Below are positions 23,957-44,835 of a DNA stretch of 64,000 nucleotides, in pieces. The stretch's first letter is position 1, and each line of letters begins with the position of its first letter. The position numbers and the translations under genes are program-made. The DNA comes from Myxococcus fulvus (GTDB taxonomy: Bacteria > Myxococcota > Myxococcia > Myxococcales > Myxococcaceae), in contig NZ_FOIB01000005.1 of NCBI RefSeq assembly GCF_900111765.1, positions 372,001 through 436,000 on the forward strand, in the 5' to 3' direction. The notes under the pieces were generated by a model, which made no database searches, was not told the DNA's origin, and saw only the letters and a program-made list of their open reading frames with translations.

Positions 23957-25705
23957 CTAGTCCTTCAACGTGAGGCTGCTCTCACCGTGGCTCAGCACGG
24001 TCGAGGCAGCGTGGCTGGTGACCGAGACGCCCAGGCCCCGCGCGAGGGTCTCCGCCATCGGGGGGCCATTGCGCGGCCGCGTGAACGCAGCCAGGTCCGC
24101 GCCGGTCAGCGGGTGATTCGCGCGCCGGAGCCGCTGGTTCAGCATCGCCTGCTCGCGCTCGACGACGCGCAGACACCGACGCTCGAGGGCGAACGCGCTG
24201 GCGGCGACGCCAGCGACCTCACCGCACAGGGGCTCCGCCACGGCCTTGTCTCCCGGCAGCCCGTGCGCGAAGAACTCTGCCAGCCTCCGCTGGCTCGTGG
24301 CCTGCTCGGTGGGGTCCAGAGCCGCCAGCTCGTCCAGCGAGGTGCCCTGAAGTGCGCCGGGGAAGGCCTCACCGAGGCGCGCGAACAACCAGCGGCTGAG
24401 CTTGATCTCCCGCTGGTAGGTCTCGACCAGGGGGAAGTCGTCGCGGAGCAGCGGGTAGCGCGCGACGTCGATGGGCGCCTCCACGAACTCCTGCAGCGCG
24501 GTGCGCGGGAGGTGTCCGGCGAACGCCGCCCGGAGCCGCTCGTGGAGCAGCCCCTGGCTCGCCCCGAGGAAGCGGACCACCGACTCGACGCGCTGCCCGA
24601 GCAGGCCGTAATCGAGCGCGGCGTCGAGATCTCCGAGGCGCGCCGCGATATCGGGCTGGACATCGATGGGGGCCGGGGTCGCGCCGGTCATCACCTGCAT
24701 GTACTCGTTGATCAGCGCCGGCGGCCCGGCGCACACGCCGTGCGGACCATGGAAGACCGCGTGGCGCTCGGCGTAGTCCATGATGGTCTGCGCGGTGACG
24801 GGCTGCTCGGGGGCCTCGCGCACCAAATCATTGGTGACCAGGCGGACGCCGTCGATCAACCGGAACATGGCCGACAGCCCGCTGTCGAGCTCCCCGTTCC
24901 GCGCCGGGTCGACGCCCCGCACCAGCACGTACCCGACCGACGCGAGCGTGCAGACGACCTGCATGTGGAGCTCGCCCGCGGTGAGCACGCCCGGGGTCCG
25001 GGGCGGCATGCGCGCGAGGAAGGCCCGGCGGAACTGCTCGGTCAGCGAGAGCAGCTCCGGCCACTGCCGCGCCATGGCCTTCATCGCGGTCACGTTCATC
25101 GGGAGCTCGCTCTGGTAGCGGCTCCCCGCGTAGTGGCACTGCTTGCGCACGGTGGGCAGGTCGAGGAACAAGGTGCGCGGTGCGACGTTGTTCTCACCCA
25201 CCTGCCGGCCATCCGCGTCCAGCGCCGGATGCGCCACGCGGTAGACCGGCACGACCACCTCGAGGTTCGACAGCTCGAAGGCCCGTCCGAACGCCTGTTC
25301 GGTCAGCACGGGGCAGCGATTGTCGTGGCCACCGAACGTGAGCGGCTCACGCCCGGCGGGCACATCCCCCAACCGCTCGGGATAGGACACCGCGGTGCGT
25401 CCGGTGGGTGCCTCCGAGACCCGCCTCAGCACCCGCTGCTCCATCAACATCTCGAGCAGGTCCCGGATCTTCTCCCAGGAGTGGGGCGCGCCATCAGACC
25501 ACGCCATGGCGTCGGAGGCCTGGAACTGCTCGACCTGGAGCAGCTTCTCCCCCAGGGGCGCGATGTCCGGCTCGTCGAAGATGAGCTCCACCTCGCCATA
25601 GAAGAGGTGCAGGACCTTCTGGCCATCGCCTGCGTCGAGCCGGTCGTGCGTGAGCCTCTTTCGATTGGGAATGTAGAGCAACTCATCCGCTTGCAGTTGT
25701 GCCAT
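23957..25705 (-). CDS. Unrecognised 582-residue protein of peptide-export operon
   Basis: I do not recognise this protein. The N-terminal ~100 residues ('LHLFYGEVELIFDEPDI...IRDLLEMLMEQRVLRRV') have the strand-helix-helix pattern of a small winged-helix domain such as a RiPP recognition element, but this is a by-eye impression. The centre (~115-330) contains several Cys and His ('GGHDNRCPVLT', 'KQCHYAG', 'LHMQVVCTLASVGYVLVRG', 'HAVFHGPHGVCAGPP') that could bind a metal or be catalytic. The C-terminal ~230 residues are helical and Leu/Ala/Arg-rich. It has no signal peptide or membrane segment. It lies between a TolC-like gene (6 bases) and a kinase gene (8 bases) in the exporter operon, so it is the most likely modifying enzyme or maturase of the cluster. 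Confidence 0.78.
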   Translation of the reverse strand: MAQLQADELLYIPNRKRLTHDRLDAGDGQKVLHLFYGEVELIFDEPDIAPLGEKLLQVEQFQASDAMAWSDGAPHSWEKIRDLLEMLMEQRVLRRVSEAPTGRTAVSYPERLGDVPAGREPLTFGGHDNRCPVLTEQAFGRAFELSNLEVVVPVYRVAHPALDADGRQVGENNVAPRTLFLDLPTVRKQCHYAGSRYQSELPMNVTAMKAMARQWPELLSLTEQFRRAFLARMPPRTPGVLTAGELHMQVVCTLASVGYVLVRGVDPARNGELDSGLSAMFRLIDGVRLVTNDLVREAPEQPVTAQTIMDYAERHAVFHGPHGVCAGPPALINEYMQVMTGATPAPIDVQPDIAARLGDLDAALDYGLLGQRVESVVRFLGASQGLLHERLRAAFAGHLPRTALQEFVEAPIDVARYPLLRDDFPLVETYQREIKLSRWLFARLGEAFPGALQGTSLDELAALDPTEQATSQRRLAEFFAHGLPGDKAVAEPLCGEVAGVAASAFALERRCLRVVEREQAMLNQRLRRANHPLTGADLAAFTRPRNGPPMAETLARGLGVSVTSHAASTVLSHGESSLTLKD

Positions 25706-25711
25706 GGCTTC

Positions 25712-27205
25712 TCACTCCCGATTCAGTGTGACGTCGCGCGACCAGGTGCCGCCGAGCGAACGATAGACCGCGACGCGATGGTTGAGCAGCAGCCGCTGTG
25801 CTTGAAGACTCGCGCGCTCCAGCCCGACCAGGTTCGTCAGGGCGGAGAGCACCGTCAGATAGTCCGAGCGCCCCTGCTCGAAGAGCCGCCTGGCCTCGTC
25901 CAGGAGCTGCTGCCCGAGCAGGACCTGCGCCCGCAGGGCGCGCAGGCTCGTCGCCCCGGTCTCCTCCTGGACCACGGCATCCTGCACCCGTCCGATCGCG
26001 GTGTTCAGCGCGAGCTGGTATTGGACGTGGCGACGGTGGAGCTGGATGGGCAGGCGCTTGTGCTCGGTGAATCGCCTTCCATCGAACAGGGCCCACGTCA
26101 GGTTCACCCCGACGACGGACTGGTGGAGGATCGGCTCCGAGAGACCGACCTTCGCGGCGCCCACGCTGCCCACCAGCTGGATTGTCGGCAGCCAGCTCGC
26201 CCGGTTCGCGTTGATGCGGTGCTCCACCTCGGCGACGCGCAGCTCCTGGAGCCGCATCTCCGGCGTGTTCGCGTTCAGGTCTCCTGGCGTTCCGAGCTTG
26301 GGCGGAGGCGGGAGGTCGGGGAGCTGTCGCTCGAGTGGAACGATGTCGTCCGTTGGGTCGGGGACCCGGCCCAGCAGCGCCTTCAGCTCCGAGTTCAAGA
26401 GCGCGTTGCGGGCGGAGATCAACGGCACCTGCGCTTCGAGGTTCAGCAGCAGCTGCTCCTGCTGCAGCACCGCGAGCCGGGGCGTGAGGTGCTGTTCGAA
26501 CCGCGCTTGAATCAGCCGGAGCAGCTCTTTGTTGTAGTCGATCTGCCGCTGCGTGAGGTCCCGGAGCGCGCGGGCCTCGAGGATGTCGAACCAGAGCTGG
26601 GTGAGCCGCATCGCCATGTCCTGGACGCGGGCCTCGGTGAGCTGCCGCTGCTGCTCGGCGAAGTTCAATCCCGCGCTCCGCTGCGCGGCGAGGTTTCCGA
26701 ACAGGTCGACCTGGTAGGTCAGGCCGACATCGGCGGTGGCGATGGTGTATTTGGCCTGGGTCGCCGGCGCGGGCGGGACGATGGTGACGACATGACTCAG
26801 CCCCGCCGGGTTGAGGATGCCGACCTGGAGCGGGTACCACCAGCCTTGCGGCACGTTGGGGTCGAGCTGGTTCTCGTAGATCAGATCCCGCACGTCGTGC
26901 AGGACCAGGCTGTTGCCGAAGCACTCCCGGATGGCCGCGTCGAGCGCCGGGTCGGCGAACGCCGACCACCAGACCTCGTCCTGGGGGACGTGCTCGGCGG
27001 GCCGCGCGGGCCCGCCCTCCTTCGACGGCCCCGGGCTCGGAACCTCGCCCTCGGGTGCGGTGGACGGTGCGGGCGGCCCGGTGCGCGGCTCGACGGCGGT
27101 CGAGTAGCTGCTCGGCGCCGGAGGCGGTGTGACGACGACGGGACGGACCAGCCCACAACCGGAGCAGGTCGTCGCGAGGAGAACGAGCGTGAGTCGAAGT
27201 CTCAT
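25712..27205 (-). CDS. TolC/NodT-type outer-membrane efflux lipoprotein
   Basis: This 497-residue outer-membrane factor has a lipoprotein signal (Cys17 in TTCSGC) followed by a Pro-rich stretch, then two OEP halves rich in long amphipathic helices: 'QQRQLTEARVQDMAMRLTQL', 'LRDLTQRQIDYNKELLRLIQ', 'HRRHVQYQLALNTAIGRVQD' and 'LEQGRSDYLTVLSALTNL'-like segments. It forms the outer-membrane exit duct of a tripartite exporter with the HlyD protein and the ABC transporters of the same operon. Its ATG overlaps the stop of the second ABC gene (ATGA at 27202-27205). Length and repeats are normal for the family. A dedicated TolC gene inside a microcin-type operon indicates that the product leaves the cell. 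Confidence 0.9.
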   Translation of the reverse strand: MRLRLTLVLLATTCSGCGLVRPVVVTPPPAPSSYSTAVEPRTGPPAPSTAPEGEVPSPGPSKEGGPARPAEHVPQDEVWWSAFADPALDAAIRECFGNSLVLHDVRDLIYENQLDPNVPQGWWYPLQVGILNPAGLSHVVTIVPPAPATQAKYTIATADVGLTYQVDLFGNLAAQRSAGLNFAEQQRQLTEARVQDMAMRLTQLWFDILEARALRDLTQRQIDYNKELLRLIQARFEQHLTPRLAVLQQEQLLLNLEAQVPLISARNALLNSELKALLGRVPDPTDDIVPLERQLPDLPPPPKLGTPGDLNANTPEMRLQELRVAEVEHRINANRASWLPTIQLVGSVGAAKVGLSEPILHQSVVGVNLTWALFDGRRFTEHKRLPIQLHRRHVQYQLALNTAIGRVQDAVVQEETGATSLRALRAQVLLGQQLLDEARRLFEQGRSDYLTVLSALTNLVGLERASLQAQRLLLNHRVAVYRSLGGTWSRDVTLNRE

Positions 27206-29313
27206 GGGTGGCTGACGACCACGAGGGCTTTCGCGTGGTTGAGGACGCAGCGCTGCGCGACCCGCATGGTCTCGGGGTCGAGGGAGGCGAAGCTCTCATC
27301 GAGGATGACCAGCTCCACCCCCTGCAACAGCGTGCGCGCGATGTAGAGCCGGCTCTTCTCGCCGTGCGAGAGCTGCCAGCCGGTCTCGCCGATCATCTCA
27401 TCGAGGCCGGCGGGCATCTTGGCGATCAGCTCGTCCAGCCCCAGCTCCTTGCACAGCGCGGCGGCCTTGGCCCGCAGCTCGGGCGAGGTCGGCCACTCGC
27501 GCCCGAGCAGCAGATTGTACGCGAAGCTGCCGGACAGGACGTGGTTCTCGTGGAACTGCGGCGCGGCGGTGATGCGCTTGCGCCAGCCCGAGGAGCCGAA
27601 CGTCGCGCGATCCAGCGCGTGCAGCAGCATCACCCCGCCCTGCGGCGACCTCAGGCCCGTGAGCAGCGACACCAGCGTCGACTTGCCACCACCCGATGGG
27701 CCCTCCAGCAGGATGCGGTCGTCCCGCGCGATCTGGAACGAGCAGTTCTCGAGCACCGGCCGGGTGCGCGCGTCGTGCCGGAAGGTCAGGCCCCGCGCCT
27801 CGATGAGGGTCCCGCTGTCGGCGTCGGTGGGCTTGCCGCCCTCCAGTTCGAGCGGGACCTTCGATTCGAGCTCCGGGCGGCCCACCGCGAGCAACAGGTC
27901 GCGGATCTGCTCGAACGACACCGCCGCCTGGGAGACCTGCTGGAAGTAGACGGCGACCTCGTCGAAGGCCCGCAGCGCGAGCAGGATGCCGCCCACGGAC
28001 ACCGCCAGCGCGCTGGCATTGGCCGTACCGGTGCTGAACGCCGGCAGCAAGGTCAACAGCGCGAGCACCAACCAGCCGTCGCGCAGCAGCGCGGTCAGTT
28101 GCATGGTCCGGCGGTCCATGACCTTCGAGACCTCGGAGTAGGAGCTCAAGCGGACGTCTTCGCCATCATGCCAGCGCTCCAGGGGGAGCTGAGCCAGCCG
28201 CGTTCGATGGCCGAGCATGCGCTCGAGCAGGTCGTGGGTGATTTCGACGCGCGAGCTCGACCACGCCCGCTGGACGCCATAGTGCCGGCGCGCGAGGACG
28301 AACGCGACCACGACCCACAGGACGAGCACCACCGTCTGGGGCCACCCTCCCGCCCCGAGCACCAGGATGACGCCCGCCATGACCAGGTCGACGAGCGACA
28401 ACACCGCGAGCAGGGCGCCGCCGACCGCGAGCTGCTCGACGACCTCAGCCTCGGCGACGCGGCCGAAGTGGCGGCCGATGCCGTCGAGCCGCACCTCGTC
28501 GGGGGTCAGCTTGAGGGTTCCCGCCAGGAGCTGCTGCTTGAGCAGCGTTCCGAGCCGGATCGAGAACACGCCCTGCCACCACACCTCGAGCATGCGCAGC
28601 GGAATCGCGCAGGCGATGACGGCGATCCACCCCAGGAACCAGCCGGTCTCGAGGCGGGCCTGGAGCGCGGCGCGACCGAGCAGCCAGAACGAGCCGGCCA
28701 GCACCAGCGAGAGCAGCGTGTGGCTCACGAGGATGCCGGCGACGAGCGACGGGATGTCGCCGAGCAGCGTCCGCCGGCTCGCGGTGCGCCGGGGGCGCAT
28801 GATCCACCCGGTGCGAAGCTGCGCCTGACCGAGCCGCTGCAGCAGCATCTTCGAGCGGGCGTGCTCGCGCGCGCGGGGCGACATCTCCACGCCGGCGAGC
28901 AGCTGGTCCACCTCGGCGACGGTGGCCTCCTGCTCTTCGCGCAGGAGCGCGAGCGCGCTCTTCTTCGGAACCAGGACCGCCGTGGCGTCGCGCGCGAGCA
29001 GGCGCAGCTTCCCGCGCCGCGTCCCCAGCAGCACCAGATAGGACGGGACGCCGTCTCGCCGGACCTGGAGGATGCAGGGCGCGGCGCGGTCCAGGACGTC
29101 GGGCAGCTCGTGGTAGAGCGGCGTGATCGGCTCCAGCTCCACGCCGAGTCGATCTCCGAGCGCGAACATCCAGACCCGGCTCGGCTCGACGGCCGCCGCG
29201 GGTGGAGAGATCTCGCCCCCGGCCCGGCCATAGCCTTGCCGCTGCGCCAGTTGCTCCAGCGCGTCGGGCAGTCGCTCGACCGGCCACAACAGGTCGGAGT
29301 GAGGGCGCGTCAT
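27202..29313 (-). CDS. NHLM-type second ABC transporter (permease/ATPase)
   Basis: This is a 703-residue half-transporter. The start is the ATG at 29313, overlapping the preceding stop as ATGA; the open frame upstream is inside that gene. Residues 1-150 form a degenerate peptidase-like or docking domain ('SYLVLLGTRRGKLRLLAR') without a catalytic Cys. A membrane domain follows (~180-460), with at least five hydrophobic spans such as 'SHTLLSLVLAGSFWLLGRA'. The ATPase has Walker A GPSGGGKST (~534), a signature line LSHGEKSR and Walker B ELVILDESFASLD (~660). The order HlyD, peptidase-ABC, non-peptidase ABC matches the NHLM bacteriocin exporter triplet (TIGR03794/03796/03797 as known families). 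It probably pairs with the C39 ABC protein as a heterodimer. Confidence 0.88.
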   Translation of the reverse strand: MTRPHSDLLWPVERLPDALEQLAQRQGYGRAGGEISPPAAAVEPSRVWMFALGDRLGVELEPITPLYHELPDVLDRAAPCILQVRRDGVPSYLVLLGTRRGKLRLLARDATAVLVPKKSALALLREEQEATVAEVDQLLAGVEMSPRAREHARSKMLLQRLGQAQLRTGWIMRPRRTASRRTLLGDIPSLVAGILVSHTLLSLVLAGSFWLLGRAALQARLETGWFLGWIAVIACAIPLRMLEVWWQGVFSIRLGTLLKQQLLAGTLKLTPDEVRLDGIGRHFGRVAEAEVVEQLAVGGALLAVLSLVDLVMAGVILVLGAGGWPQTVVLVLWVVVAFVLARRHYGVQRAWSSSRVEITHDLLERMLGHRTRLAQLPLERWHDGEDVRLSSYSEVSKVMDRRTMQLTALLRDGWLVLALLTLLPAFSTGTANASALAVSVGGILLALRAFDEVAVYFQQVSQAAVSFEQIRDLLLAVGRPELESKVPLELEGGKPTDADSGTLIEARGLTFRHDARTRPVLENCSFQIARDDRILLEGPSGGGKSTLVSLLTGLRSPQGGVMLLHALDRATFGSSGWRKRITAAPQFHENHVLSGSFAYNLLLGREWPTSPELRAKAAALCKELGLDELIAKMPAGLDEMIGETGWQLSHGEKSRLYIARTLLQGVELVILDESFASLDPETMRVAQRCVLNHAKALVVVSHP

Positions 29314-32039
29314 CCCACCACCTTCAACCCGCCCGCGGCGGGCTCCGCGGCCGGCTTCTCCACGGGCTTCGGCGCCGGCTTCTCCACCAGCTGGCCTCCC
29401 GACAGCCACCAATGGCGCCAGTTCCCTCCGCCCCAGAGCAGCGTGCGATTCTCCTGGTCGGCGCGAAGGAGCACGGAGTACCGCGACTCCTTGTTCGCGA
29501 GCAGCTCCTTCGGCGACCCGTTCTCGAGGATCCGACCGTTCTCGACCACGAGCACGCGATCGAACTCCTGGGTGTGCTCGACATCGTGGGTGACACAGAG
29601 GAGCGTGATGTCCGCCCAGAGCCGCCGGGACTCGGCGAGCAGCCGCGCGCGCCGGTCGCGATCCAGCCCGCGAAAGGGCTCGTCGAGGATGGCCAGACGC
29701 ACGCCGGAGCGCAGCATCGCGCGCGCCAGACGCACGCGCTGCCCCTGGCCGCCCGAGACCAGCCCTCCGCCCTCGCCCAGCGACGTCTGCAGCCCGTCTG
29801 GCAGCGCCTCGAGGATGTCGAGCATCTCGGCGCCCTTGAGCGCCCCCGACAGTGCCCAGCCGTGCGAGCCGTCGTTGCCGTACCGGAGGTTGTCGAGGAG
29901 GCTCTGGTTCCAGAGGCTGATCGCCGGGTCCACCCAGGCCGAGGTGCGCCGCAGCCGCTCGATGGCGGCCTGGTCGAGCACCTGCCCGTCGACCCGGATC
30001 TCACCGCGCGCCGGCCGGAGCCAGCCGAGCAGCAGGCCGACCAGCGTCGACTTGCCTGCTCCAGAGACACCGACCACGGCCACGTGCTCGCCAGGGGCGA
30101 TGTTCAAGGACACCTTGTCGAGGATGGTGTGACCGCCGCCCTTCACGCGGACCTTCTCCATCACGATCGACACGCCGCTCGCGGCGGCCGCGGGCGCGAC
30201 AGGCGCCTGCACCGGCGTCTCCGGGCGGGCCTGCGGCTCCTTGATGTCGCCGATGACGTCGAGGAGCCGGCGGACCCGGTTCATCGCATTCGGGAACGCG
30301 CGGCTCAGCACCATCAGCCGCTGGCCGAGGATGGGGAAGCGCAGCGCCCAATAGACGACCAACAACACCAGCGAAGCCCGGCTCGTGCCCGCGAGGTACG
30401 AATAGACGAGCAGCATGACGAGGCCGTAGCTCACCAGCATCAGCACGCCCTCGAACCCGACCGACAGCGTCTGGAGCCAGTAGCGCGCCTGGGTCCAGCT
30501 GACGAGCAAGGTCTCCTGCGCGCGGCGCAGCGACCGCTCGGCGCCGTGGATCCGGATGGGCGTGAGCCCGACGAGCGCGTTCAGGGTGAAGCCGCTGAGC
30601 GCGCCCGAGTGCATCTGCACACGCAGGTCGGGCTCGAAGAGCAGCTTCTGCGCGACCAGGGGCACCAGCAGCGTGACCGCCGCGAGCGCGAGCACGGTGA
30701 GCCAGGCGTAGGGCGCGGCCCAGATGAGCGCGACGGTGATGCTCGCGACCTCGAGCGACAGGATCAACGCCTGCGAGAGCAGGAGCGGCAGCGACCGCAT
30801 CGCCTGGATGTTGTGCGTGCGAGACGCCATGTCGGAGGCGAGCCGGCTCTGGAAATAGCGGTCCTCCATCTCCGGGAGCTTCTCGAAGTACGCCTTGCGC
30901 AGCCGCACCTCGAGCCGGCGGCCGATGCCGAGCAACCCCAAGGAGATGGGGATCTGGATGAGCATGAAGCAGAGCGCGACGCCCGCGAGGACGGCCATGC
31001 CCGTCGCGCGCTGCGCGAACGTGCCCAGGTCGCGCCCCAGGTCGAGCACGCCCCGGAGCATCAGCGCTTGCAGGATCCTCCCGAAGGTGGCGAACACCAG
31101 CCCCACCGCGATGAGGCCCGGGACGACCCACGAATCCTCGCCTCGCAGGCGGAGCAGCGTTCGCGCCGGGCTCACCTGCTTGGCGACCAGCTCCGTCGCC
31201 AGGTCGCTGGCGAGCACGGCCCTCGGCGCGTCTTCGCCTTCGCGCGGAGCCTCGCGCCAACCGCGAATCCGCATCAGCACCGCGCCGGTCATCGACAGCT
31301 CGCCGTCCACCTCCGGGTTGGGGCGAGCGGACCAATAGACCGCGGGGATGGGCACATCGCCGGAGGCATCCTTCGCCATCATGGATTGCAGCAGACCCGC
31401 CGCCGTCCGGCCTCGTCGGACGGCGCCCGCGCGAATCATCGCTTCGGACGCCCGGCACGCGGCGTCGAGCCTGGCGATCGACAGATACCCGGGGTCCTCG
31501 AGCGCCCGGGCCACGAGCGCCCGCGCATCCGTCGCCCCCAGGTCCAGCAGGCGGCGCTCGAACGTGGCGACCGCCTCCTCGGACCCGGCCCATTCGCGCC
31601 AGCCGGCCTCCGGAACGGACGTGGTGTGCTGGTACAGGTGGCTCAGCAGCGTCGAAATCCGGGTCCAGTGACGGCCCGCCGCCGGGTCCATGACCTGGAT
31701 GAACGGACCGACGCGATTCCACAGCACCACGAAGTGCGGCCGTCCTCCCGCGCTGAGCGTGACGATGATGGCGGGAAGCGCCTTGGCCTCGGGCACCACC
31801 ACGTGGTCGAGCGGAAGCATCACCTGCTCGGAGTCGAGCCCGAGCTGGTTCGCGACTTCATCCAGGGTGACGATCGAAGTGCCGTCGACGTCCGTCTGAC
31901 ACACTTCACGGAGGACGCGATAGTTGAGCTCGGCGCCCATCCCCGCGAACAGGCTCTTGAGTGATGCGGGGCCGCAATCCGTCGCCGAGATCTGGATCAC
32001 CTCGGGGATGATTGAGCTCCGCCGCCTGGGAGGAGTCAT
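29310..32039 (-). CDS. C39-peptidase ABC transporter (NHLM/bacteriocin type)
   Basis: This 909-residue fusion cleaves Gly-Gly leaders and exports the product. The C39 domain at residues 1-140 has an intact catalytic set: Gln16, Cys22 in TDCGPAS, His102 in RPHFVVLW, Asp118 in MDPAAG. A ~150-residue linker, a six-span membrane domain (~300-590) and an ATPase follow, the last with Walker A VSGAGKST, signature VSGGQGQR and Walker B LAILDEPFRGLD. The last ~50 residues are a Pro/Ala/Lys tail not required by the family. It is the second gene of the operon, two bases after hlyD and overlapping the next ABC gene. Because the peptidase is intact, the operon must have a Gly-Gly precursor somewhere; none of usual size is nearby. 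Confidence 0.92.
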   Translation of the reverse strand: MTPPRRRSSIIPEVIQISATDCGPASLKSLFAGMGAELNYRVLREVCQTDVDGTSIVTLDEVANQLGLDSEQVMLPLDHVVVPEAKALPAIIVTLSAGGRPHFVVLWNRVGPFIQVMDPAAGRHWTRISTLLSHLYQHTTSVPEAGWREWAGSEEAVATFERRLLDLGATDARALVARALEDPGYLSIARLDAACRASEAMIRAGAVRRGRTAAGLLQSMMAKDASGDVPIPAVYWSARPNPEVDGELSMTGAVLMRIRGWREAPREGEDAPRAVLASDLATELVAKQVSPARTLLRLRGEDSWVVPGLIAVGLVFATFGRILQALMLRGVLDLGRDLGTFAQRATGMAVLAGVALCFMLIQIPISLGLLGIGRRLEVRLRKAYFEKLPEMEDRYFQSRLASDMASRTHNIQAMRSLPLLLSQALILSLEVASITVALIWAAPYAWLTVLALAAVTLLVPLVAQKLLFEPDLRVQMHSGALSGFTLNALVGLTPIRIHGAERSLRRAQETLLVSWTQARYWLQTLSVGFEGVLMLVSYGLVMLLVYSYLAGTSRASLVLLVVYWALRFPILGQRLMVLSRAFPNAMNRVRRLLDVIGDIKEPQARPETPVQAPVAPAAAASGVSIVMEKVRVKGGGHTILDKVSLNIAPGEHVAVVGVSGAGKSTLVGLLLGWLRPARGEIRVDGQVLDQAAIERLRRTSAWVDPAISLWNQSLLDNLRYGNDGSHGWALSGALKGAEMLDILEALPDGLQTSLGEGGGLVSGGQGQRVRLARAMLRSGVRLAILDEPFRGLDRDRRARLLAESRRLWADITLLCVTHDVEHTQEFDRVLVVENGRILENGSPKELLANKESRYSVLLRADQENRTLLWGGGNWRHWWLSGGQLVEKPAPKPVEKPAAEPAAGGLKVVG

Positions 32040-33301: not shown

Positions 33302-33386
33302 CACCTCGGCGCAGCTGGATGATGCCCTCTCCCTCTGACTGAATACAGGCACCTCGATGCGACACGGGCGCTCGTTCACATCGCCG

Positions 33387-33423
33387 CAATGCGTCGCACA
33401 TTGATCGCTTGTTCGATTTGACA
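33387..33423 (+). promoter_or_regulatory. Operator-like palindrome and -35 hexamer before the 14-codon ORF
   Basis: CAATGCGTCGCACATTG (33387-33403) is an interrupted palindrome with five paired outer bases and a further inner pair. Fourteen bases later comes a perfect plus-strand TTGACA (33418-33423), 46 bases before the ATG of the 14-codon ORF. A -10 at standard spacing is poor (TACACT occurs 12 bases downstream). Together with the minus-strand TTGACA this region looks like a regulated divergent promoter. Confidence 0.4.
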
Positions 33424-33468
33424 TCCAGACACGATTACACTTAGCGTTCGTCTTGAAAGGAGGCACAC

Positions 33469-33513
33469 ATGAAGATCAAGATCCACGTCCGCGGCGGCCC
33501 CAAGGCTCGCTAA
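33469..33513 (+). CDS. 14-codon peptide gene, candidate minimal precursor of the C39 exporter
   Basis: The ORF encodes MKIKIHVRGGPKAR and ends in TAA. Three sequence facts support translation. AAAGGAGG at 33456-33463, a near-perfect anti-SD match, stands five bases before the ATG. A 14-bp intrinsic terminator at 33575-33616 follows. A TTGACA lies upstream. The transcript would be under 200 bases and carry nothing else. Residues 9-10 are Gly-Gly, the site class cut by C39 peptidases, and the gene is divergent to a C39 ABC exporter operon that has no other precursor. Cleavage there would leave only PKAR. It may be a tiny RiPP or signal precursor, or a regulatory micro-ORF. The high Lys/Arg/His content is notable. 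Function is inference. Confidence 0.6.
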   Translation: MKIKIHVRGGPKAR

Positions 33514-33574
33514 GTAGTGAGTTGTCTTGACGCCGGATGTCTCGGCGGGTCGTACCTCATTTCAAGATCGTCCG

Positions 33575-33616
33575 AGAGGGGTTGATGGGGATTATTCCAT
33601 CAGCCCCTCTTTTTTT
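33575..33616 (+). terminator. Strong intrinsic terminator after the 14-codon ORF
   Basis: A 14-bp stem (33575-33588 with 33597-33610, one G-U pair), an eight-base loop and seven consecutive T make a textbook Rho-independent terminator 61 bases past the TAA. Such clear terminators are uncommon in this GC-rich window, so it marks a discrete short transcription unit. Confidence 0.85.
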
Positions 33617-34005
33617 ATTTCTGGCGACGTCTTCAAGCCGGGCGATACCTCAATCCCAACCTTGCGCGTCGGGCGGGCTTGCCCGCCATGTTTCTCTGTT
33701 CCACTGTGTGTCGCACCAGCATTGATGAGCAAATCGGCCTGATTGAGCTGGTTTCGCCCCCACTTCTGGCGTGTAGAGGCGGGGGCGCGGTGCAGAGGCC
33801 TACCCGAGAAGTACAGCCACCCCTCCGAAGCGATGCTCCGGGGCGTTCTCGAGGCACCTTGACGCCCTCGTAGAACTTCTTCGCTGTCACCGGAACCACG
33901 CATCCGTCAGAGCCGAAGCCCCGAGCCTGGAGTCTCAGGGTCGCGCCCAGGGCCTGCGCGTCCACGGACGGGTCCTGGAGCGGGCCCGGCATACCGGTCT
34001 CACGT
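33592..34005 (-). pseudogene. Possible decayed coding sequence, minus strand
   Basis: Two protein-like stretches occur in different minus-strand frames. 'DPSVDAQALGATLRLQARGF' continues into 'CVVPVTAKKFYEGVKV' (about 33985-33850). Further on, 'LNQADLLINAGATHSGTEK' runs into a tail ending at the TAA at 33592. Neither is a full gene, and a frameshift or rearrangement would be needed to join them. Family not recognised. The stop lies inside the terminator stem, and the whole may be chance. Confidence 0.25.
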
Positions 34006-34165: not shown

Positions 34166-34239
34166 GGCCAGGTAGCTCACCTGGTTAGAGCGGCGGTCTC
34201 ATAATCCGCAGGTAGTCGGTTCAAGTCCGACCCTGGCCA
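34166..34239 (+). tRNA. tRNA with CAU anticodon (Met, possibly Ile2)
   Basis: The cloverleaf is complete: acceptor GGCCAGG with CCTGGCC, D arm GCTC/GAGC, anticodon arm GCGGT-CTCATAA-TCCGC with a T-T at the last pair, a five-base variable loop and T arm GTCGG-TTCAAGT-CCGAC. The discriminator is A and CCA is not encoded. The anticodon is CAT. The sequence resembles elongator tRNA-Met; a lysidine-modified tRNA-Ile2 has the same anticodon and is not excluded by eye. It is flanked by two peptide-biosynthesis loci. Confidence 0.93.
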
Positions 34240-34242
34240 CTG

Positions 34243-34279: not shown

Positions 34280-35186
34280 ATTTTCCGGGCTCCCCGCTCC
34301 TCCCGCCCCTCCCCCGCGCCGCCAGGCCCTGGCCGGCCTCCTGCGGAGGGAGCTGGGTGGACGCCAACGCCCGCGGCACCCCCAAAGACCTCCACTCCAC
34401 CAGGGACACCCCGGCGCCCCCTGGGCGTGGGGTCAAGCGGCCCCTCGTCCTGCGGCCACCGCGCCGCGTGGGCATGCCCCAAGAGCCCCCGCCTGGAACG
34501 GCCGCGCCGGCCGACACGCACCGTCCGACTTCCCGCCTGGGCGCGAGGTCGGAGCGCACGCGTCGGGGTCACCCGCGGTGCACCCATGTCCCCGGGCCTG
34601 GAGCTCCAGCGCACAGGACTCTACGGACGGCCGACGGGCGTGCATCGAAGGTTGCCGGGTCGAATCACCACCTCGCTGTCCGCCACCAGCACCGCCGTCG
34701 CGGGAGGCGCGGCCACCAGCGCCCCCATCGGGCGACGACTCATCGGTTCTTCGACAGGGTGCTCCAACCCGGAACCCCGCTGGATGATGTTCGACCGCTG
34801 GCTCCTGAACATGGCAACCATCTGGGACGGGCATCCTGCGGTTGCGGGTTCTGCCCGCGCTGTCTGATCAACGCTCCAGCGACGCTTGATTGTCATCGTC
34901 GTCGTGGATGAGCGGCGCATTCAAAGCGTCGTAGAGACAGCGGATGGCCGCATGGCTCCGTCCAGGTGCCCCTCCTGCCAACTCCAACACACCGCGTTGC
35001 ACGGCGGGCACCGCCTGGAGTCATTCATCACTCATGTGTCCTGGGATTGGCTCATTTCATACCCAGCCATTCCTGCCATCATCCGGGACAATTCGGCCGC
35101 CATTAAATCACAATCACCCGGCTGGCCCTGCTCGTCACCCGCGCGATAGCCTTCAGGCCCCGGCCTTCCTTCCCCCTCGGACCTCC
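34280..35186. other. 907-base region between tRNA and lanKC, no intact gene
   Basis: Several open frames cross this region on both strands but none has a convincing start, ribosome site or domain. On the minus strand at 34868-35000 a protein-like tail reads 'AAIRCLYDALNAPLIHDDDD' and ends TGA, with a stop immediately upstream of it, so it may be a gene fragment. The last 150 bases are lower in GC (for example CATTAAATC near 35100) and probably hold the lanKC promoter, but no -35/-10 pair is clear. Confidence 0.4.
34868..35000 (-). pseudogene. Possible gene fragment (C-terminal tail)
   Basis: About 43 codons read 'RGVLELAGGAPGRSHAAIR' and continue to 'NQASLER' before TGA at 34868-34870. Composition and helical pattern look coding, but no start codon with a ribosome site is present and an in-frame stop lies just upstream. 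Family unknown. Its position beside a tRNA suggests leftover mobile or accessory DNA. Confidence 0.25.
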
Positions 35187-37868
35187 ATGTTCCTCACGTT
35201 CCTTTCGCCCGAGTATTACGAGACGCTGGAGCGACACCGGCCGTCCGCCGAGTACCTCGACCTGGTCAAGCCACACCTGGACGCCGGCTGGAAGGTCATT
35301 CCAGGCGGGTACTGGACCCGCTGCTGGCCCAAGGAGGGGCACCTCGCGCACGGCTGGAAGATCCACCTCGCCGCGTCCAACGAGACCGCGGTGGAGCTCC
35401 TCCAGCGCACCCTCCCCCTGCTCACGCAAGCCCGGGTCAGCTTCAAGTTCTGCGCGGATCCAGCCATCCTGCGGCTGTCCTTGAACAAGAACGCGCCCAG
35501 GACGGGCGCGGGCAAGTTCGTCACCATCTACCCGGAGAACGAGGAGCATTTCCTCTCGCTCGCCGAGTCGCTCCACCAGGCCACCGAGGGCCTCTGGGGC
35601 CCCTTCCTCCTGACGGACCGACCCTACAAGGGCAGCAAGGTCGTCTTCTATCGCTATGGCACCCATCTGGCGGAGGCGCGCCTCAACCTGCGCGGCGAGC
35701 GTGTCCCAGGAATGACGGGCCCCGACGGTTCGTGGATGGATGACCACCGCAAACCCCACTTCTTCCTGCCCAAGTGGGCCAAGGATCCGCTCTCCGGCTG
35801 GCGCATCCGCGAGCAGGCCCCCTCCAGCGGAGACGTCCGACTCAACCAGCGCTATCGCATCGAGCGGGCGCTCAAGTTCAACGCCTCGGGCGGCATCTAC
35901 CAGGCCCTCGACACGAAGACAGGACAGACGGTGATCCTCCGCGAGGCGCGCCCGCTCACCAGCGGCTCGCCCGAGCGCGACGAGGGCTTCATCCTCCTGG
36001 AGAAGGAGGCGCGCATCCTCCAGAGGCTCGAGTCCACGGGATATACGCCGCGCTTCGTCGAGCTGTTCAAACATTGGGAACACCTGTTCCTCGTCCAGGA
36101 GAAGATCGAGGCGGAGTCCCTCTGGGGTTATGCCATCGGCTTCAGCCGCGGCTCCTCGGACCTGCGTCCCCGGGACTTCTTCTCACGCGTCCGGGACACG
36201 ATGACCCAGCTGGCCACCGCGCTGAAAGTCATCCACGCACGCGGCATCGTGATGCGAGACCTGACGCGCAACAACATCCTCTTCACCTCCGAGCGGCGCC
36301 TGCGCTTCATCGACCTGGAGTTCGCCTTCGAGCTGGACGGGGACACGCCCTTCACGCGCAGCTGGACGGATGGCCACAGCTCCCCTCAACAACGCCGCTG
36401 GGAGCGCCCCGCCCCCAGCGATGACTGGTACACCCTGGGCGCCATCCTCATCGACCAGATTGCCTTCCTCGCGCCGGGACTGGATCTGAACCGGGAGGGA
36501 ACCCTCCGCTCGTTCCGCCAGACGCTGGAGGACTACCACCTGCCGCTCAAGCTCCACGAGCTCGCGCTCGGACTCCTCGAGCCCGACGCCTCGCGGCGAT
36601 GGGACCTGGACCGCGTCCTGGCCGTGCTGGGTGACATCCCCGAGCCGACCCATGACACGCCCATCGTCCCCATCGGCGGCACCACGCCGCCCGCCCCCCC
36701 ACCGGCGCCCACGCTCGACGTCGAGCTGGACCTCACCCTCGCGGGCATCGAGCGCTTCATCGTCTCCAAGACCGACGACACGCGCGATGACCGCCTCTGG
36801 CCGGACCGCGGCGGCAGCTTCAGCACCAATCCCCTCAACCTCGAATTCGGAGCCGCGGGCATCGCGGCCTTCCTCCACCGCAGGCCCGGCGGTGTCCCGA
36901 CCGCCGCCGTCGAGTGGATGAAGCGCCAGCTCCCACGTCACCGCTGCCCCCCCGGCCTCTTCCAGGGCCTCGCCGGGACAGCCCTCGTGCTGCAAGAGCT
37001 CGGCTGCACCGAACAGGCCCGGGCCGCCATGGACGAAGCGGCGAGCTCCTCCCTGCTCCACCAGGAGTTCGACCTCTTCTGGGGAGATTCGGGCTGGGGC
37101 CTCGCCAACCTCCACTTCTGGCGAAGGACGGGAGAGGAGCAATACCTGACGCGCGCGCTCGAGGTGGCGGAGTTCCTCCAGCGCACGAAGCAGGAGTCCA
37201 GCCAGGGCGTCTGCTGGAGCAGCCCGACCGAGACGCCCCTCGGCCTCTTCCATGGCCAGTCCGGCCCGGCCCTCTTCCTGACCTACCTCTCGCTGGCCAG
37301 GCCGAAGGAGGGCTTCCTGGAGCTGGCCGTCAAGGCGCTCGACTTCGAGGTGGCCCACTGTCAGTACAGCGGCGACGTCCTGCTCTGGTATCCCCACACC
37401 GCCGCTGGCAACGGGCAGCCCAAATCCCCTCACATGCGCCATGGAACGGCGGGGGTCGGCAGCGCCTTGCTGAGAGCCCATGTCGCGACAGGTGAGCCTC
37501 GCCTCCTGCGCCTCGCGGACCAGTGCGCCAATACCGTCAGGGACCGCCACACCAACAAGCTCTGGCTCAACTATGGCTTGTCAGGTTACGGAGAGTTCCT
37601 GGTGGACATGCATCGCCTGCTCGGCGACGAGCGCTACCTCCACTGGGCCTGCTTCCTGTCGGAGGCAATCATGGCGCATCGCATCCAGAAGGAGGAAGGC
37701 ATTGCCTTCCCCGCCGACAGCCTGCTGCGCATCAGCTGTGACCTCGGCGGTGGCATGGCGGGCATCGGTCTGTTCCTCCATCGGCTCCGCAACCCCCGGG
37801 AGCCACACTTCCTCTTCAATGACGAACTGCTCGGCCTCAATGCCATCCGAGGTCAATCCACACCCTGA
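35187..37868 (+). CDS. Class III lanthipeptide synthetase LanKC (lyase-kinase-cyclase)
   Basis: This 893-residue three-domain enzyme phosphorylates Ser/Thr of a precursor, eliminates phosphate and cyclises with Cys to (methyl)lanthionine or labionin. The N-terminal lyase domain (~1-210) starts 'MFLTFLSPEYYETLERHRPS'. The kinase domain (~220-475) has a Gly-loop 'FNASGGIYQALD', catalytic 'GIVMRDLTRNNILF' (~355) and metal line 'FIDLEFAFEL' (~377) in place of DFG. After a Pro-rich linker, the LanC-like domain (~500-893) has 'GLFHGQSG' (~685), 'MRHGTAGVG' (~750) and 'SCDLGGGMAGIGL' (~851). The full Cys-Cys-His zinc set of class I/II/IV cyclases is absent, as in class III. The start at 35187 gives a normal length; the open upstream frame has no domain. 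The precursor follows 126 bases later. Confidence 0.9.
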   Translation: MFLTFLSPEYYETLERHRPSAEYLDLVKPHLDAGWKVIPGGYWTRCWPKEGHLAHGWKIHLAASNETAVELLQRTLPLLTQARVSFKFCADPAILRLSLNKNAPRTGAGKFVTIYPENEEHFLSLAESLHQATEGLWGPFLLTDRPYKGSKVVFYRYGTHLAEARLNLRGERVPGMTGPDGSWMDDHRKPHFFLPKWAKDPLSGWRIREQAPSSGDVRLNQRYRIERALKFNASGGIYQALDTKTGQTVILREARPLTSGSPERDEGFILLEKEARILQRLESTGYTPRFVELFKHWEHLFLVQEKIEAESLWGYAIGFSRGSSDLRPRDFFSRVRDTMTQLATALKVIHARGIVMRDLTRNNILFTSERRLRFIDLEFAFELDGDTPFTRSWTDGHSSPQQRRWERPAPSDDWYTLGAILIDQIAFLAPGLDLNREGTLRSFRQTLEDYHLPLKLHELALGLLEPDASRRWDLDRVLAVLGDIPEPTHDTPIVPIGGTTPPAPPPAPTLDVELDLTLAGIERFIVSKTDDTRDDRLWPDRGGSFSTNPLNLEFGAAGIAAFLHRRPGGVPTAAVEWMKRQLPRHRCPPGLFQGLAGTALVLQELGCTEQARAAMDEAASSSLLHQEFDLFWGDSGWGLANLHFWRRTGEEQYLTRALEVAEFLQRTKQESSQGVCWSSPTETPLGLFHGQSGPALFLTYLSLARPKEGFLELAVKALDFEVAHCQYSGDVLLWYPHTAAGNGQPKSPHMRHGTAGVGSALLRAHVATGEPRLLRLADQCANTVRDRHTNKLWLNYGLSGYGEFLVDMHRLLGDERYLHWACFLSEAIMAHRIQKEEGIAFPADSLLRISCDLGGGMAGIGLFLHRLRNPREPHFLFNDELLGLNAIRGQSTP

Positions 37869-38262: not shown

Positions 38263-40500
38263 TCAGCCGGCCTTCGCCAGCGGCTCCGCGCTCTCCATCT
38301 GGGCCCGGATGAGCCGGGCATAGACGCCGCCCTTCGCGAGCAGCTCCTCGTGGCGTCCCAGCTCGGCCACGCGTCCGCCGTCCATCACCACGATGAGGTC
38401 CGCGTTGCGGACGGTGCTCAGCCGGTGGGCGATGACGATGCGCGTGCATTGCAAACCCGCCAGCGCCTGCTGCACCTGGCTCTCGGTGATGGCATCCAGG
38501 GCGCTGGTGGCCTCGTCCAGCAGCAGCACCGCCGGGCGGTGCACGAGCGCCCGCGCCAATGCCAGCCGCTGACGCTGCCCGCCCGACAATGACAGCCCCC
38601 GGTCCACCAGCAGCGTGTCGTACTGCATGGGCATGGCCAGGATGTCGTCGTGGATGTGCGCCAGCTTCGCCGCCTCCACCACGCGCTCCAATGGCAGACC
38701 GGGGCTGCTCAGGGTGATGTTGTCGCGCAGGGAGTAGCCGAAGAACGACGGGTCCTGGAGGACGATTCCCATCTGCGAGCGCACCGAGCGCAGCTCCAGA
38801 TGGCCCAGGTCCACGCCGTCGTACACCACGCGTCCGGACGTGGGCAGGTAGAGCCCCAGCAGCAGGTTGGCCAGCGTCGACTTGCCCGCGCCCGAGCGCC
38901 CCACGAGCGCCACCATCTGTCCGGGCTCGACGCGCAGTGACACGTCCTGCACCACCAGGGGCGAGTTGGCGCTGTAGCGGAAGGACACCGTGTCCAGCTC
39001 GATGGCGCCCTTGAGCTCCACGGTGGCCCCGGGCTTGTCCGCCGGCTGCTCGACGGGCGCCTCCAGCACGTCGTTGATGCGCTCCAGGTAGCTGCCCAGC
39101 AGCTGCACCTGCCCCGCGGCGCCAATCAGGTTCGACATGGGCAGGAGCATGGTCCCCGCCAGGGCGCTGAGGCTGAGCATCTCACCGAGCGTCAGCGTCC
39201 CCTCGAGCACCTGATAGGTGCCCACGCACATCAGCACCAGCGGCGAGGCCAGGCGCAGCGCGCCCGTCAGAGAGTCCACCCACAACGCCAGGCGTCCGCG
39301 CTGCAAGGTGACGTTCTGGACGTCCACGAAGAGGTGCGAGTAGGCCTCCACCGCGCGCCGCTCCGCCCCGAAGGACTTGAGCGTCTGCATCCCCGTGAGC
39401 ATGCCGATTTGATAGCTCTGGTTCTTGGCGTCCAGCTCCAGGCTCTGGGACATCAGGCTGCGACGGCGCTCCCGCGTGAGCAGGAACAGCAGGAGCTGGA
39501 GCAGCCCTATCGCCAGCACCACCAGCCCCATCCAGGTGCTCGTCAGGAAGAGGATGCCGAAGAAGAGCAGCACCAGCGTCCCATCCAGCAGGGTGGTGAG
39601 CGCGGTGGAGGAGAGGATTTCGCGGACGATGGTCTGGGTGCTCATCCGCATCATCAGGTCGCCGGCGGGGCGCAGCTGGAAGAAGGCGAACGTCAGGTCC
39701 ACCAGGTGGTCCAGGAACCCGAGCGTCATGCCGCTGTCGATGCGCGTGCGCAACTCGAGCAGCAGGTGCCCCCGCAGCAGCGAGGCGACCAGGTTGAACC
39801 CCACCAGCGTCGCCAGGGACAGGAGCAACACCCAGAGCAGCTGGTAGTCCCCTCGGGGCACCACGCGGTCCACCACCATGCCGGTGAGCATGGGCACGGC
39901 GAGGGCGAACAACTGGAGCACCGCCGACAGCGCGACGATGCGCCACAGCGTGTCCGACTGGCGCAGCAACGGCAGGACGTAGCGGAAGACGCCCGTGCGC
40001 CGGGAGCGCAGCTGCTCGAAGTCCTCGGAGGGCTCGAAGATGAGCACCACGCCGGTGAAGTGGCGGCTGAAGCTCTCCAGCGAGACGAGCCGCCGCCCCT
40101 GGGAGGGGTCCACGATGCGGACCTGCCCGCCGACCCGCCCCTCGAAGACCACGTAGTGATTGAAGTCCCAATGGAGGATGCAGGCCTGGGGCAGGTACTC
40201 CAGGCGGTCCAGCTCCAGCGTGATGGCGCGGCCCCGCAGGCCCAGCCGCCGCCCCGCGTCCAGCAGCATGCGCGCGGAGACCCCGTCGCGGCCCGGCCCC
40301 GTCACCTCGCGCACCTGGTCGAGCGTCATCTCCCGGCCGTGGTAGCCCAGCACCATGGCCAGACACGCCGCGCCACAATCCGTGGCGGACAGCTGACGAA
40401 TCTCCGGGATGCCTCGCAGCCGCTGCCGCAGCCGCTGGAGCGCCGGGAAGCGCCGCGTCCATCCCTGCCCGTACCCCCGGGGGGTCTCTTCACTCGTCAT
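38263..40500 (-). CDS. C39-peptidase ABC transporter (lanthipeptide LanT-like)
   Basis: This 745-residue protein has an intact N-terminal C39 peptidase: Gln36, Cys42 in TDCGAAC, His115 in FNHYVVFE, Asp131 in IVDPSQG. A six-span membrane domain (~190-470) is followed by an ATPase with Walker A GRSGAGKST, signature LSGGQRQR and Walker B VLLLDEATSALD. It should cut the precursor after its VVGG site and export it. It is the last gene of a three-gene minus-strand operon and its ATG overlaps the HlyD gene stop by eleven bases. Use of a C39 exporter with a class III synthetase is unusual; class III loci more often rely on separate proteases. Confidence 0.93.
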   Translation of the reverse strand: MTSEETPRGYGQGWTRRFPALQRLRQRLRGIPEIRQLSATDCGAACLAMVLGYHGREMTLDQVREVTGPGRDGVSARMLLDAGRRLGLRGRAITLELDRLEYLPQACILHWDFNHYVVFEGRVGGQVRIVDPSQGRRLVSLESFSRHFTGVVLIFEPSEDFEQLRSRRTGVFRYVLPLLRQSDTLWRIVALSAVLQLFALAVPMLTGMVVDRVVPRGDYQLLWVLLLSLATLVGFNLVASLLRGHLLLELRTRIDSGMTLGFLDHLVDLTFAFFQLRPAGDLMMRMSTQTIVREILSSTALTTLLDGTLVLLFFGILFLTSTWMGLVVLAIGLLQLLLFLLTRERRRSLMSQSLELDAKNQSYQIGMLTGMQTLKSFGAERRAVEAYSHLFVDVQNVTLQRGRLALWVDSLTGALRLASPLVLMCVGTYQVLEGTLTLGEMLSLSALAGTMLLPMSNLIGAAGQVQLLGSYLERINDVLEAPVEQPADKPGATVELKGAIELDTVSFRYSANSPLVVQDVSLRVEPGQMVALVGRSGAGKSTLANLLLGLYLPTSGRVVYDGVDLGHLELRSVRSQMGIVLQDPSFFGYSLRDNITLSSPGLPLERVVEAAKLAHIHDDILAMPMQYDTLLVDRGLSLSGGQRQRLALARALVHRPAVLLLDEATSALDAITESQVQQALAGLQCTRIVIAHRLSTVRNADLIVVMDGGRVAELGRHEELLAKGGVYARLIRAQMESAEPLAKAG

Positions 40501-41434
40501 GCGGCAGGAGCACCTTGAGCCCTGGAATCAGGGTCACGAAAATGGGTTCGGCGCGCACCGCGGCCTGGGCTCGCGCGGGCATCCCGTCGAAGTAGCCCAG
40601 CATCCGCCCGTTGACGGCGAAGGTGCGCGAGGGGATGGCGGCGCGCACCAGGACGATGGGCCCCGTGGTCTCGACGGTGTCCGCCAGCCCCGGGCCCAGA
40701 TAGCGCTGGAGCTCCGCGGGACCGATGAGCTGCTCGCCCACCGAGTCGATGACGAGCTCCCGGTAGTCATACCGGAAGCCGTCCAGCTCCACCCGCAGGG
40801 ACATGCCCGGACGCAGGAAGGGGCGGTAGTAGCCCGGCAGGAACGCCAGCAGGTACGCGGAGGAGTCATCCTCCACGAGCGAGGCCACCGGCGCCCCCGC
40901 CTCGGTGTACTGCCCCGGCTGGATTCGCAGGTCCCCCACCACGCCCGCCATGGGCGCCTTCAAGGCCCGCGAGGACAGCCGGGCCTGCGCCAGCTCGCGC
41001 TCCGCGCGCAGCGACGTGAGCGCCTGACGCGCGGACTGGTCGCTCAGGTCGCGCATGTAGCGCACCAGCAGCAGGTCCATCTCGTGCTCGATGCGCGAGA
41101 GCGCGGAGTGCTCCTCGTCGGCCTGGAAGGTCACCAACGTCTGCCCCGCCTCGACGCGCTGGCCCGGCTGGACATCCACCGTGGCCACCACGCCGGCGAC
41201 CTGCGCCATGACGTCCCGCCGGCGCTCCACCCGCACCAGCGCGGGCCCCTCGGCGTACTCGGACACGGTGCCCACCACGCACAGCAGGACGCCCAGGGCC
41301 AACATGCCCATGAGGACCCAGTACGTCCACCGCGTCCAGCCGGGGGCCAGGAGGAGCACGTCCCCCTCCTGCCTGCGGTGCTGCTGGTAGTACTCCAGCG
41401 CCTCCTTGCGGAATATCGAGGGCTTGCCGGTCAC
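40490..41434 (-). CDS. HlyD-family adaptor of the lanthipeptide exporter
   Basis: This 314-residue adaptor has one membrane anchor (~35-57, 'WTYWVLMGMLALGVLLCVVG'), a first lipoyl half 'AGVVATVDVQPGQRVEAGQTLV', a short helical hairpin (~105-160) and a second lipoyl half 'APMAGVVGDLRIQPGQYTEAGAPV', then a beta-barrel ('FLRPGMSLRVELDGF'). The N-terminal cytoplasmic tail and this architecture match bacteriocin secretion accessory proteins. It overlaps the C39 ABC gene by eleven bases and follows the other HlyD-like gene by 40 bases. The coiled-coil hairpin is short, which suggests that it contacts a partner adaptor rather than reaching TolC alone. Confidence 0.88.
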   Translation of the reverse strand: MTGKPSIFRKEALEYYQQHRRQEGDVLLLAPGWTRWTYWVLMGMLALGVLLCVVGTVSEYAEGPALVRVERRRDVMAQVAGVVATVDVQPGQRVEAGQTLVTFQADEEHSALSRIEHEMDLLLVRYMRDLSDQSARQALTSLRAERELAQARLSSRALKAPMAGVVGDLRIQPGQYTEAGAPVASLVEDDSSAYLLAFLPGYYRPFLRPGMSLRVELDGFRYDYRELVIDSVGEQLIGPAELQRYLGPGLADTVETTGPIVLVRAAIPSRTFAVNGRMLGYFDGMPARAQAAVRAEPIFVTLIPGLKVLLPHDE

Positions 41435-41474
41435 GTCGCGTGCTCCATCCTCGAAGGGGATTGACGAAGCAAGA

Positions 41475-44656: not shown

Positions 44657-44835
44657 CAGTGTGCTCCAGGTGAGGAAGGCGCGGATTAGCACACCAATTT
44701 GAGAACCCGGCTAACAAAGGTGTCACTTCCACCCCTCGGGGGCCGGGCCGTTTTGTTGACGAGTCCCCGGACCACCCTCCTAATGCCCGGACACGTCAGT
44801 AGCGGCCTGTAGCAGTCCCCCCGGGAGGAACCCCC

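Follow-up and report, generated by a model that had tools for sequence, protein, structure and literature searches.

Can a gene of only 14 codons supply the substrate of a dedicated peptide exporter? The question arises from a 64,000-nucleotide stretch of Myxococcus fulvus DNA (contig NZ_FOIB01000005.1, positions 372,001 to 436,000; hereafter the window), in which a very small open reading frame (ORF) stands divergent to an operon encoding a C39 peptidase-ABC protein. We put a probability of roughly 0.8 on the reading that this ORF specifies a RiPP-like precursor, the leader of which is read by a 582-residue protein of no known family (U582) and then by the C39 peptidase, with cleavage after Gly10 and export of the product. 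Within this reading the RRE function, the modification, the cleavage site, export and the biological role are all inferred; there are no expression or product data.

The 14-codon gene and the operon opposite

On direct reading, the ORF runs from an ATG at 33469 to a TAA stop at 33511-33513 and encodes MKIKIHVRGGPKAR; five bases (cacac) separate the ATG from the ribosome binding site AAAGGAGG, both as the initial annotation had it (Table 1). That annotation had further described a TTGACA and a palindrome upstream, of which only the former could be confirmed. A promoter scan with strict settings calls no promoter at the ORF, and conservation in relatives offers no more than a weak hint that TTGACA-N18-TAGCGT serves as one. 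The block CATCGCCGCAATGCG between the two divergent genes is, by inference, a possible operator. Downstream, the intrinsic terminator that had been claimed was found; its stem is kept in all nine aligned loci described below, the T tail is weaker in the relatives, and the scanned region holds three terminator-like sites, against 0.4 +/- 0.6 in shuffles. No further gene fits between the ORF and the terminator when the region is read directly, in agreement with the claim that the transcript holds nothing else.

Table 1. Features of the small gene and of the divergent operon, in window coordinates (a slash marks the boundary between leader and core, here and in the text).
Feature	Position	Strand	Remarks
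15-nt block CATCGCCGCAATGCG	33379..33393	.	between two divergent genes; invariant in 9/9 aligned loci
Putative promoter TTGACA-N18-TAGCGT	33418..33447	+	TTGACA at 33418-33423; largely kept in relatives
Ribosome binding site AAAGGAGG	33456..33463	+	in 27/27 orthologous copies listed
Precursor gene, MKIKIHVRGG/PKAR and stop	33469..33513	+	leader 1-10; core 11-14 inferred
Intrinsic terminator	33574..33619	+	17-pair stem 33574-33611 and T-rich tail
HlyD-family adaptor of exporter, 405 aa	32042..33259	-	Pfam/NCBIfam
C39 peptidase-ABC exporter, 909 aa	29310..32039	-	Cys, His, Asp align with PCAT1
Second ABC protein	27202..29412	-	no C39 match; start possibly 29313
TolC-like outer membrane channel, 497 aa	25712..27205	-	Pfam/NCBIfam
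U582, candidate maturase, 582 aa	23957..25705	-	no known family
U582 residues 1-103, putative RRE-like winged-helix domain	25397..25705	-	low-confidence model
APH-fold kinase, 337 aa	22935..23948	-	Pfam

The operon is made up as had been described, of genes for an HlyD adaptor, the C39-ABC protein, a second ABC protein, a TolC-like channel, the unrecognised 582-residue protein and a kinase of APH fold. The Peptidase_C39 domain (Pfam, 53.9 bits) is fused to an ABC transporter, and its Cys, His and Asp are all aligned to counterparts in PCAT1 that we take to be catalytic. The second ABC protein may start at the ATG at 29313, since four of eight orthologue alignments begin at residue 34. The kinase occurs in all eight orthologous loci and in a locus from another family of the order (G028), and was not found in 19 other loci compared. 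Neither a P450 (Pfam) nor a ThiF domain (Pfam and NCBIfam) was detected in the six operon proteins scanned. The best NCBIfam match of the C39-ABC protein is NHLM ABC1. Membership of the NHLM/NHLP exporters was considered and rejected on scores of 194 bits against a cut-off of 853 (ABC1), 93 against 709 (ABC2) and 40 against 156 (HlyD), and the earlier label 'NHLM-like' must be regarded as loose.

Elsewhere in the window, a tRNA-Met gene (CAT) lies at 34166-34240, between the small gene and a class III lanthionine synthetase gene (LanKC, 34944-37868; 597 bits against a cut-off of 575). Downstream of LanKC, at 38263-42407, are a second C39-ABC gene and two HlyD-like genes, the latter recognised by eye, and the proteins encoded at 42545-43927 and 44099-44692 have in common a C-terminal stretch with PCHNCHEFNQFAVLYYPASRKVVVL and GYTGYDS. 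A fragment resembling the 42545-43927 protein was seen by eye at the edge of another exporter locus (L211).

Conservation of the ORF, its leader family and its exporter

Using U582 as a query against genome contigs, we recovered eight orthologous operons: seven come from records bearing the name Myxococcus or Corallococcus, one from a record labelled Comamonas. Their upstream regions were aligned with that of the window. The ORF, the ribosome binding site and the hairpin are present at all nine loci; the hlyD-adjacent copy has 15 codons at three of them, and similarity among the aligned loci falls past the stop codon. The record labelled Comamonas (Comamonas sp. KCTC 72670) contains a Myxococcus-type operon with a U582 that is 91% identical, and is possibly misnamed or contaminated.

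A whole-genome scan of 195 Myxococcota genomes for MKIK-x-H-x-R-GGP, with the reversed pattern as control, found the pattern in 23, which are precisely the genomes that have a U582 orthologue (at least 87% identity), and in 0/172 of the others; the reversed control gave 0. The ORF is divergent to the operon in all 23 genomes, and its loss from a relative's operon, one of the outcomes that the initial annotation had named as refuting its proposal, was seen in none of them. The 27 copies, two of them in each of four genomes, comprise 15 distinct 42-mers, in which six of the 42 columns are variable (by codon position, 1/0/5). Five of these columns are silent third positions, and the sixth, I5/L, is the only one to alter a residue of the 14-codon peptide; the stop occupies codon 15 in 23 copies and, after an extra A or S, codon 16 in the other four. 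Conservation at synonymous sites had been suggested as a check; the variation proves to be nearly all synonymous, and on this comparative evidence the ORF is conserved as a coding sequence. In one genome (L007) a second intact ORF adjoins pieces of a second, broken hlyD, one covering residues 2-67 and the next, directly adjacent and in another frame, residues 68-142, as if the peptide copy and not the adaptor copy had been retained. A core that hardly varies over three genera is, we infer, more in keeping with a conserved signal or a cofactor-like metabolite than with a fast-evolving antibiotic.

The peptide, which had seemed isolated, is instead one of a large family. The search for similar short ORFs that had been proposed for homologous operons succeeded in G028, where the gene order hlyD-C39ABC-ABC2-tolC-U582-APH is kept and four ORFs ahead of hlyD, on the same strand, encode MKIQTNVKAG/LTKIR, MKIQTNVRAG/VLVKGR, MKIQTNVKAG/MKIR and MKIQTNVRAG/LIAVKGR. 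They have the leader M-K-I-[KQ]-x-x-V-[RK]-[GA]-G in common, and K-x-R closes their cores as it closes PKAR. The same leader, followed by longer and diverse cores, recurs at loci with U582 paralogues (33-37% identity), for instance in MKIKTKVRGG/PRGCGPGGISIWYDEV; the ORFs there often stand in tandem. Counted over all fetched loci, the distinct contexts number 142 and the distinct peptides, which are 14-44 residues long, 110; GGAG, GAGG or AGGA lies at most 14 nt upstream in 137 of the contexts. Conservation at leader positions that the search expression fixes follows from the search itself, which is not so at positions 5, 6, 11 and 12; position 5 is T in 99 of the 110 peptides and position 11 P in 86. 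Exactly one Cys is found in the cores of 92 peptides, none in 18 and more in 0. The leader expression finds no second such ORF in the window.

Several features of the searches bound these counts. The leader patterns were widened to take in MQIK and MLIK ORFs and I at position 7 (three genomes), and the widest was run on 16 genomes only; whole-genome searching was limited to Myxococcota, apart from the U582 queries against genome contigs, viral contigs and plasmids; and the family counts do not represent independent events, because many of the genomes are close relatives. None of ten precursors tested matches NCBIfam, and none rises above a Pfam cut-off. In two genomes (L192 at 6016, L193 at 5745) MKVKTHIRGG or MKVKTNIRGG is followed by the same core, FNPQPDPPG, and these leader ORFs lie far from the U582 genes of their own genomes. 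No paper matching the leader strings or FNPQPDPPG was found, and broader queries returned no title or abstract start naming the leader family; subscription literature was barely covered, so both results are weak evidence.

Among the matches listed, all 48 full-length U582 loci have a leader ORF within about 8 kb, including each of the 25 that are non-orthologous (G028 among them). U582 does not stand beside every family member, as two genomes illustrate. G008, a distant member, has seven leader ORFs, with HlyD, C39-ABC and second ABC genes about 6 kb from one of them, and yielded no U582 match in a search of its genome. G138 has 27 leader-pattern matches, 19 of them on other contigs or more than 10 kb from its two U582 genes, which suggests that precursors in this genome (loci L121-L128, L191, L196 and L197) act in trans.

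An exporter subfamily was defined by the segment of the C39 domain plus an insert (310 aa, E <= 1e-20; the weakest match listed has 194 bits) and is present in 40 of the 195 genomes. These include all 31 genomes that are positive for the common-leader pattern (reversed control, 0), namely 30 with a full-length U582 and G008; the pattern is found in 0/155 genomes without the subfamily (Fisher p 2.9e-28), and nine genomes have the subfamily and lack the pattern. As judged from gene content, the association of the leader ORF with the exporter subfamily and with U582 is strict.

Precursors of 44-64 residues are encoded at nine of 13 sister exporter loci, and the motif that closes their leaders is similar, approximately [VIM]-x-[TS]-x-[VI]-[KR]-[AG]-G. 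The leader ends are GKLNIKTAVRAG or GKLTIKTAVRAG ahead of cores such as LATGFDCIYFARNAPFAPEHV at five loci; the remaining precursors are FNVEVKSGIKAG/RGGAVLVAEPA (one locus), FPVQVKSGVKAG/AFTFPTGP... (two loci) and TRMQTGVRAG/PVDEGCIFFARNAPFAA (one locus, found by eye and outside the search expression). No motif-bearing precursor was found at the other four (L204, L205, L210 and L212), the last three of which reach contig ends. The neighbours at L206 include an esterase, a JmjC_2 protein and a protein whose matches to AurF and desaturase are weak and fall short of the curated cut-offs; those at L213 include an FMN reductase as well as an FGE-sulfatase protein. Since the leader motifs are alike and the neighbours differ, exporter and leader motif look constant and the maturation genes appear to vary; and since nine of the 13 loci have the similar leader end, the 14-codon gene looks like a leader stripped to an exporter tag, a minimal form of the leader-end motif of the sister precursors. 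FGE-sulfatase-like proteins (L213, 5419-6386, and L215, 11143-12167; Pfam covering the L213 proteins alone) lie beside 44- and 56-residue precursors, and a different RiPP chemistry is possible at these two loci.

The candidate maturase U582

U582 has no usable match in Pfam, NCBIfam, PHROGs or a PDB sequence profile, and none of its relatives was found on viral contigs; a plasmid search with a paralogue as the query gave a single 27% match, from Burkholderia arboris, over residues 166-438 of the query. A full-length structure predicted from nine close sequences has a mean pLDDT of 39.1 and is usable only over about residues 1-100, and residues 1-106 modelled alone reached a confidence of 51.9. 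In Foldseek, the full model has RRE-bearing chains among its first matches, none at E <= 0.001, and the separate N-terminal model gave chance-level results, with an RRE at rank 5 (E 2.8). VIA comparisons, again on a low-confidence model, align the N-terminus with the winged helices of MINA53 and NO66 at Z 8.0-10.2 (MINA53, 10.2) and with RRE-bearing chains at 7.6 (ThcOx), 7.2 (McbBCD), 6.7 (TbiB1 with leader), 6.5 (MccB, over U582 residues 8-100), 6.3 (PbtF), 6.2 (TruD) and 5.5 (lasso B1). VIA warns that Z under 8 can mean merely a common arrangement. Because of this ambiguity and of the poor model, the RRE reading is no more than a lead, and we say only that the N-terminus may be RRE-like. 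No sequence match between it and PqqD or a known RRE was found, and the ORFs of 20 PqqD loci miss its profile.

The C-terminal remainder occurs without the N-terminal domain at two myxobacterial loci and on one Burkholderia plasmid. Short homologues (L086, L090 and L139) have AMP-binding or NRPS genes and a Cupin_8 protein as neighbours, with no leader ORF near them in the stretches examined; this comparison leaves out the third myxobacterial one (G124). Our inference is that U582 is a tailoring enzyme that gained a leader-binding domain. G092 gave a weak match to U582 that shares its frame with the C-terminal part of a JmjC-type protein, close to the exporter of that genome; it was not confirmed by profile A4, and the same profile matches the C-terminal part of a 460-aa ORF in G156 (E 3.6e-11) that has no Pfam match. 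Per genome, no more than six candidates were scored for U582 and no more than eleven for the exporter, and further paralogues of both may exist.

A proposed pathway and its rivals

In the pathway we propose, two proteins in turn would read the ten-residue leader of the translated peptide, a segment of strand-like alternation that closes with Gly-Gly. The first is probably U582, which would recognise the leader through its RRE-like N-terminal domain and modify the few residues of the core; the second is the dedicated exporter, whose C39 domain would cut after Gly10, so that a possibly modified PKAR would leave through the ABC-HlyD-TolC conduit. A cut at this site finds support in nine of the 13 sister loci, where a motif similar to the present one closes the longer leaders ahead of the position at which C39 should cut. 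The inference with which the initial annotation closed, that the operon matures and exports a very small peptide, is strengthened by the 23/23 co-occurrence, the G028 ORFs and the sister leader ends, with cleavage, and modification by U582, still inferred. The 110 distinct peptides fulfil one criterion for a RiPP, a genetically encoded precursor with a conserved leader and a variable core. The chemistry of the window-type core may differ from that of its relatives, because it lacks the single Cys present in 92 of them.

Several known systems are comparable in part. The PCAT/C39 double-glycine peptides (ComC, class II lanthipeptides) likewise have a C39-ABC exporter, a double-glycine-type leader end and several precursors with one leader and diverse cores, and the criterion of a Peptidase_C39 domain with Cys, His and Asp fused to an ABC transporter is met here. 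The leaders differ: those described in a review have a helical motif with hydrophobic residues at -15, -12, -7 and -4 and a GG, GA or GS end (PMC10885120), whereas the present leader counts ten residues from Met and places its hydrophobic residues at -4 and -8, in the alternation expected of a strand. It has V or I at -4 and the Gly-Gly, but K or Q at -7 and no position -12, and the leader criterion is not met. NHLM/NHLP systems resemble the operon in having C39-ABC, second ABC and HlyD proteins, but a 14-residue precursor is too short for a nitrile-hydratase- or Nif11-like leader. Microcin C has a very short gene, with a seven-residue precursor that bears a C-terminal nucleotide (PMC6495379), and its MccB is among the chains that align with U582; MccB is ThiF-like, however, and no ThiF domain was detected in the six operon proteins. 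Biarylitides and myxarylin, which are described as having a five-residue precursor and a P450 and as occurring also in myxobacteria (PMC13417212, PMC12951456), share the tiny precursor gene and differ in the P450, missing from the same six proteins. The RRE-containing RiPP proteins ThcOx, McbBCD, TbiB1, PbtF and TruD have a winged-helix-like domain, in several cases N-terminal to the catalytic part; the fold match of U582 to them rests on a low-confidence model only, and its remainder is without a usable model.

The peptide could instead be an unmodified, ComC-like signal, secreted as a plain tetrapeptide once C39 has cut after Gly10, with U582 doing something else. A core near-invariant across three genera would suit such a signal, as would G008, with its leader ORFs and exporter and no U582 match, but all 48 full-length U582 loci among the matches listed sit with leader ORFs, and none was found near the short homologues that lack the N-terminal domain, within the stretches examined; we regard this explanation as unlikely. 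Also rather improbable, in our estimation, is a scaffold, in which enzymes would add to or build on the C-terminal K-x-R, as in microcin C, with a small molecule as the product. The absence from the operon proteins of ThiF or another known adding enzyme (Pfam, NCBIfam) weighs against it; the cores of four to seven residues ending in K-x-R (in G028 and in the window type, where four of 27 copies have one extra residue) and a kinase-fold gene confined, among the loci compared, to the window/G028 subtype speak in its favour.

That the ORF is a bystander, and the real substrate of the exporter a conventional precursor encoded elsewhere, was among the refutations foreseen in the initial annotation. 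Some sister exporters do have precursors of 44-64 residues; those longer leaders, however, close with a motif resembling the one in the 14-codon ORF, and with no second leader-bearing ORF found in the window we think this very improbable. A regulatory RNA or leader ORF, the translation product of which is not the point, would agree with the orientation of the transcript, divergent to the operon, and with the conserved hairpin at its end, but it is scarcely credible in the face of codon-wise conservation, a ribosome binding site, variable cores on a constant leader, multiple copies, G028 ORFs on the same strand as the operon and the lack of a further gene before the terminator.

The RiPP-like precursor remains the reading that we prefer. 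We also favour, by a slight balance of judgement, a broader proposal: a new RiPP-like superfamily of the Myxococcota, with one exporter subfamily, a leader cut to about ten exporter-read residues, a new class of RRE-fused maturase and, in the present case, a modified conserved tetrapeptide. If this is true, products of only four residues would be encodable in 14 codons, and up to 27 such genes would occur per genome, many of them far from maturase genes. The leader motif is an immediate search key, the family probes the minimum length of a C39 leader, and U582 together with the exporter makes a candidate enzyme-exporter pair that is compact and of unknown chemistry. Gene callers readily overlook genes of 14-44 codons, and a whole class of peptide products may therefore be invisible in sequenced genomes. 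The leader family is large and apparently unrecognised so far, pointing to many undiscovered small natural products.
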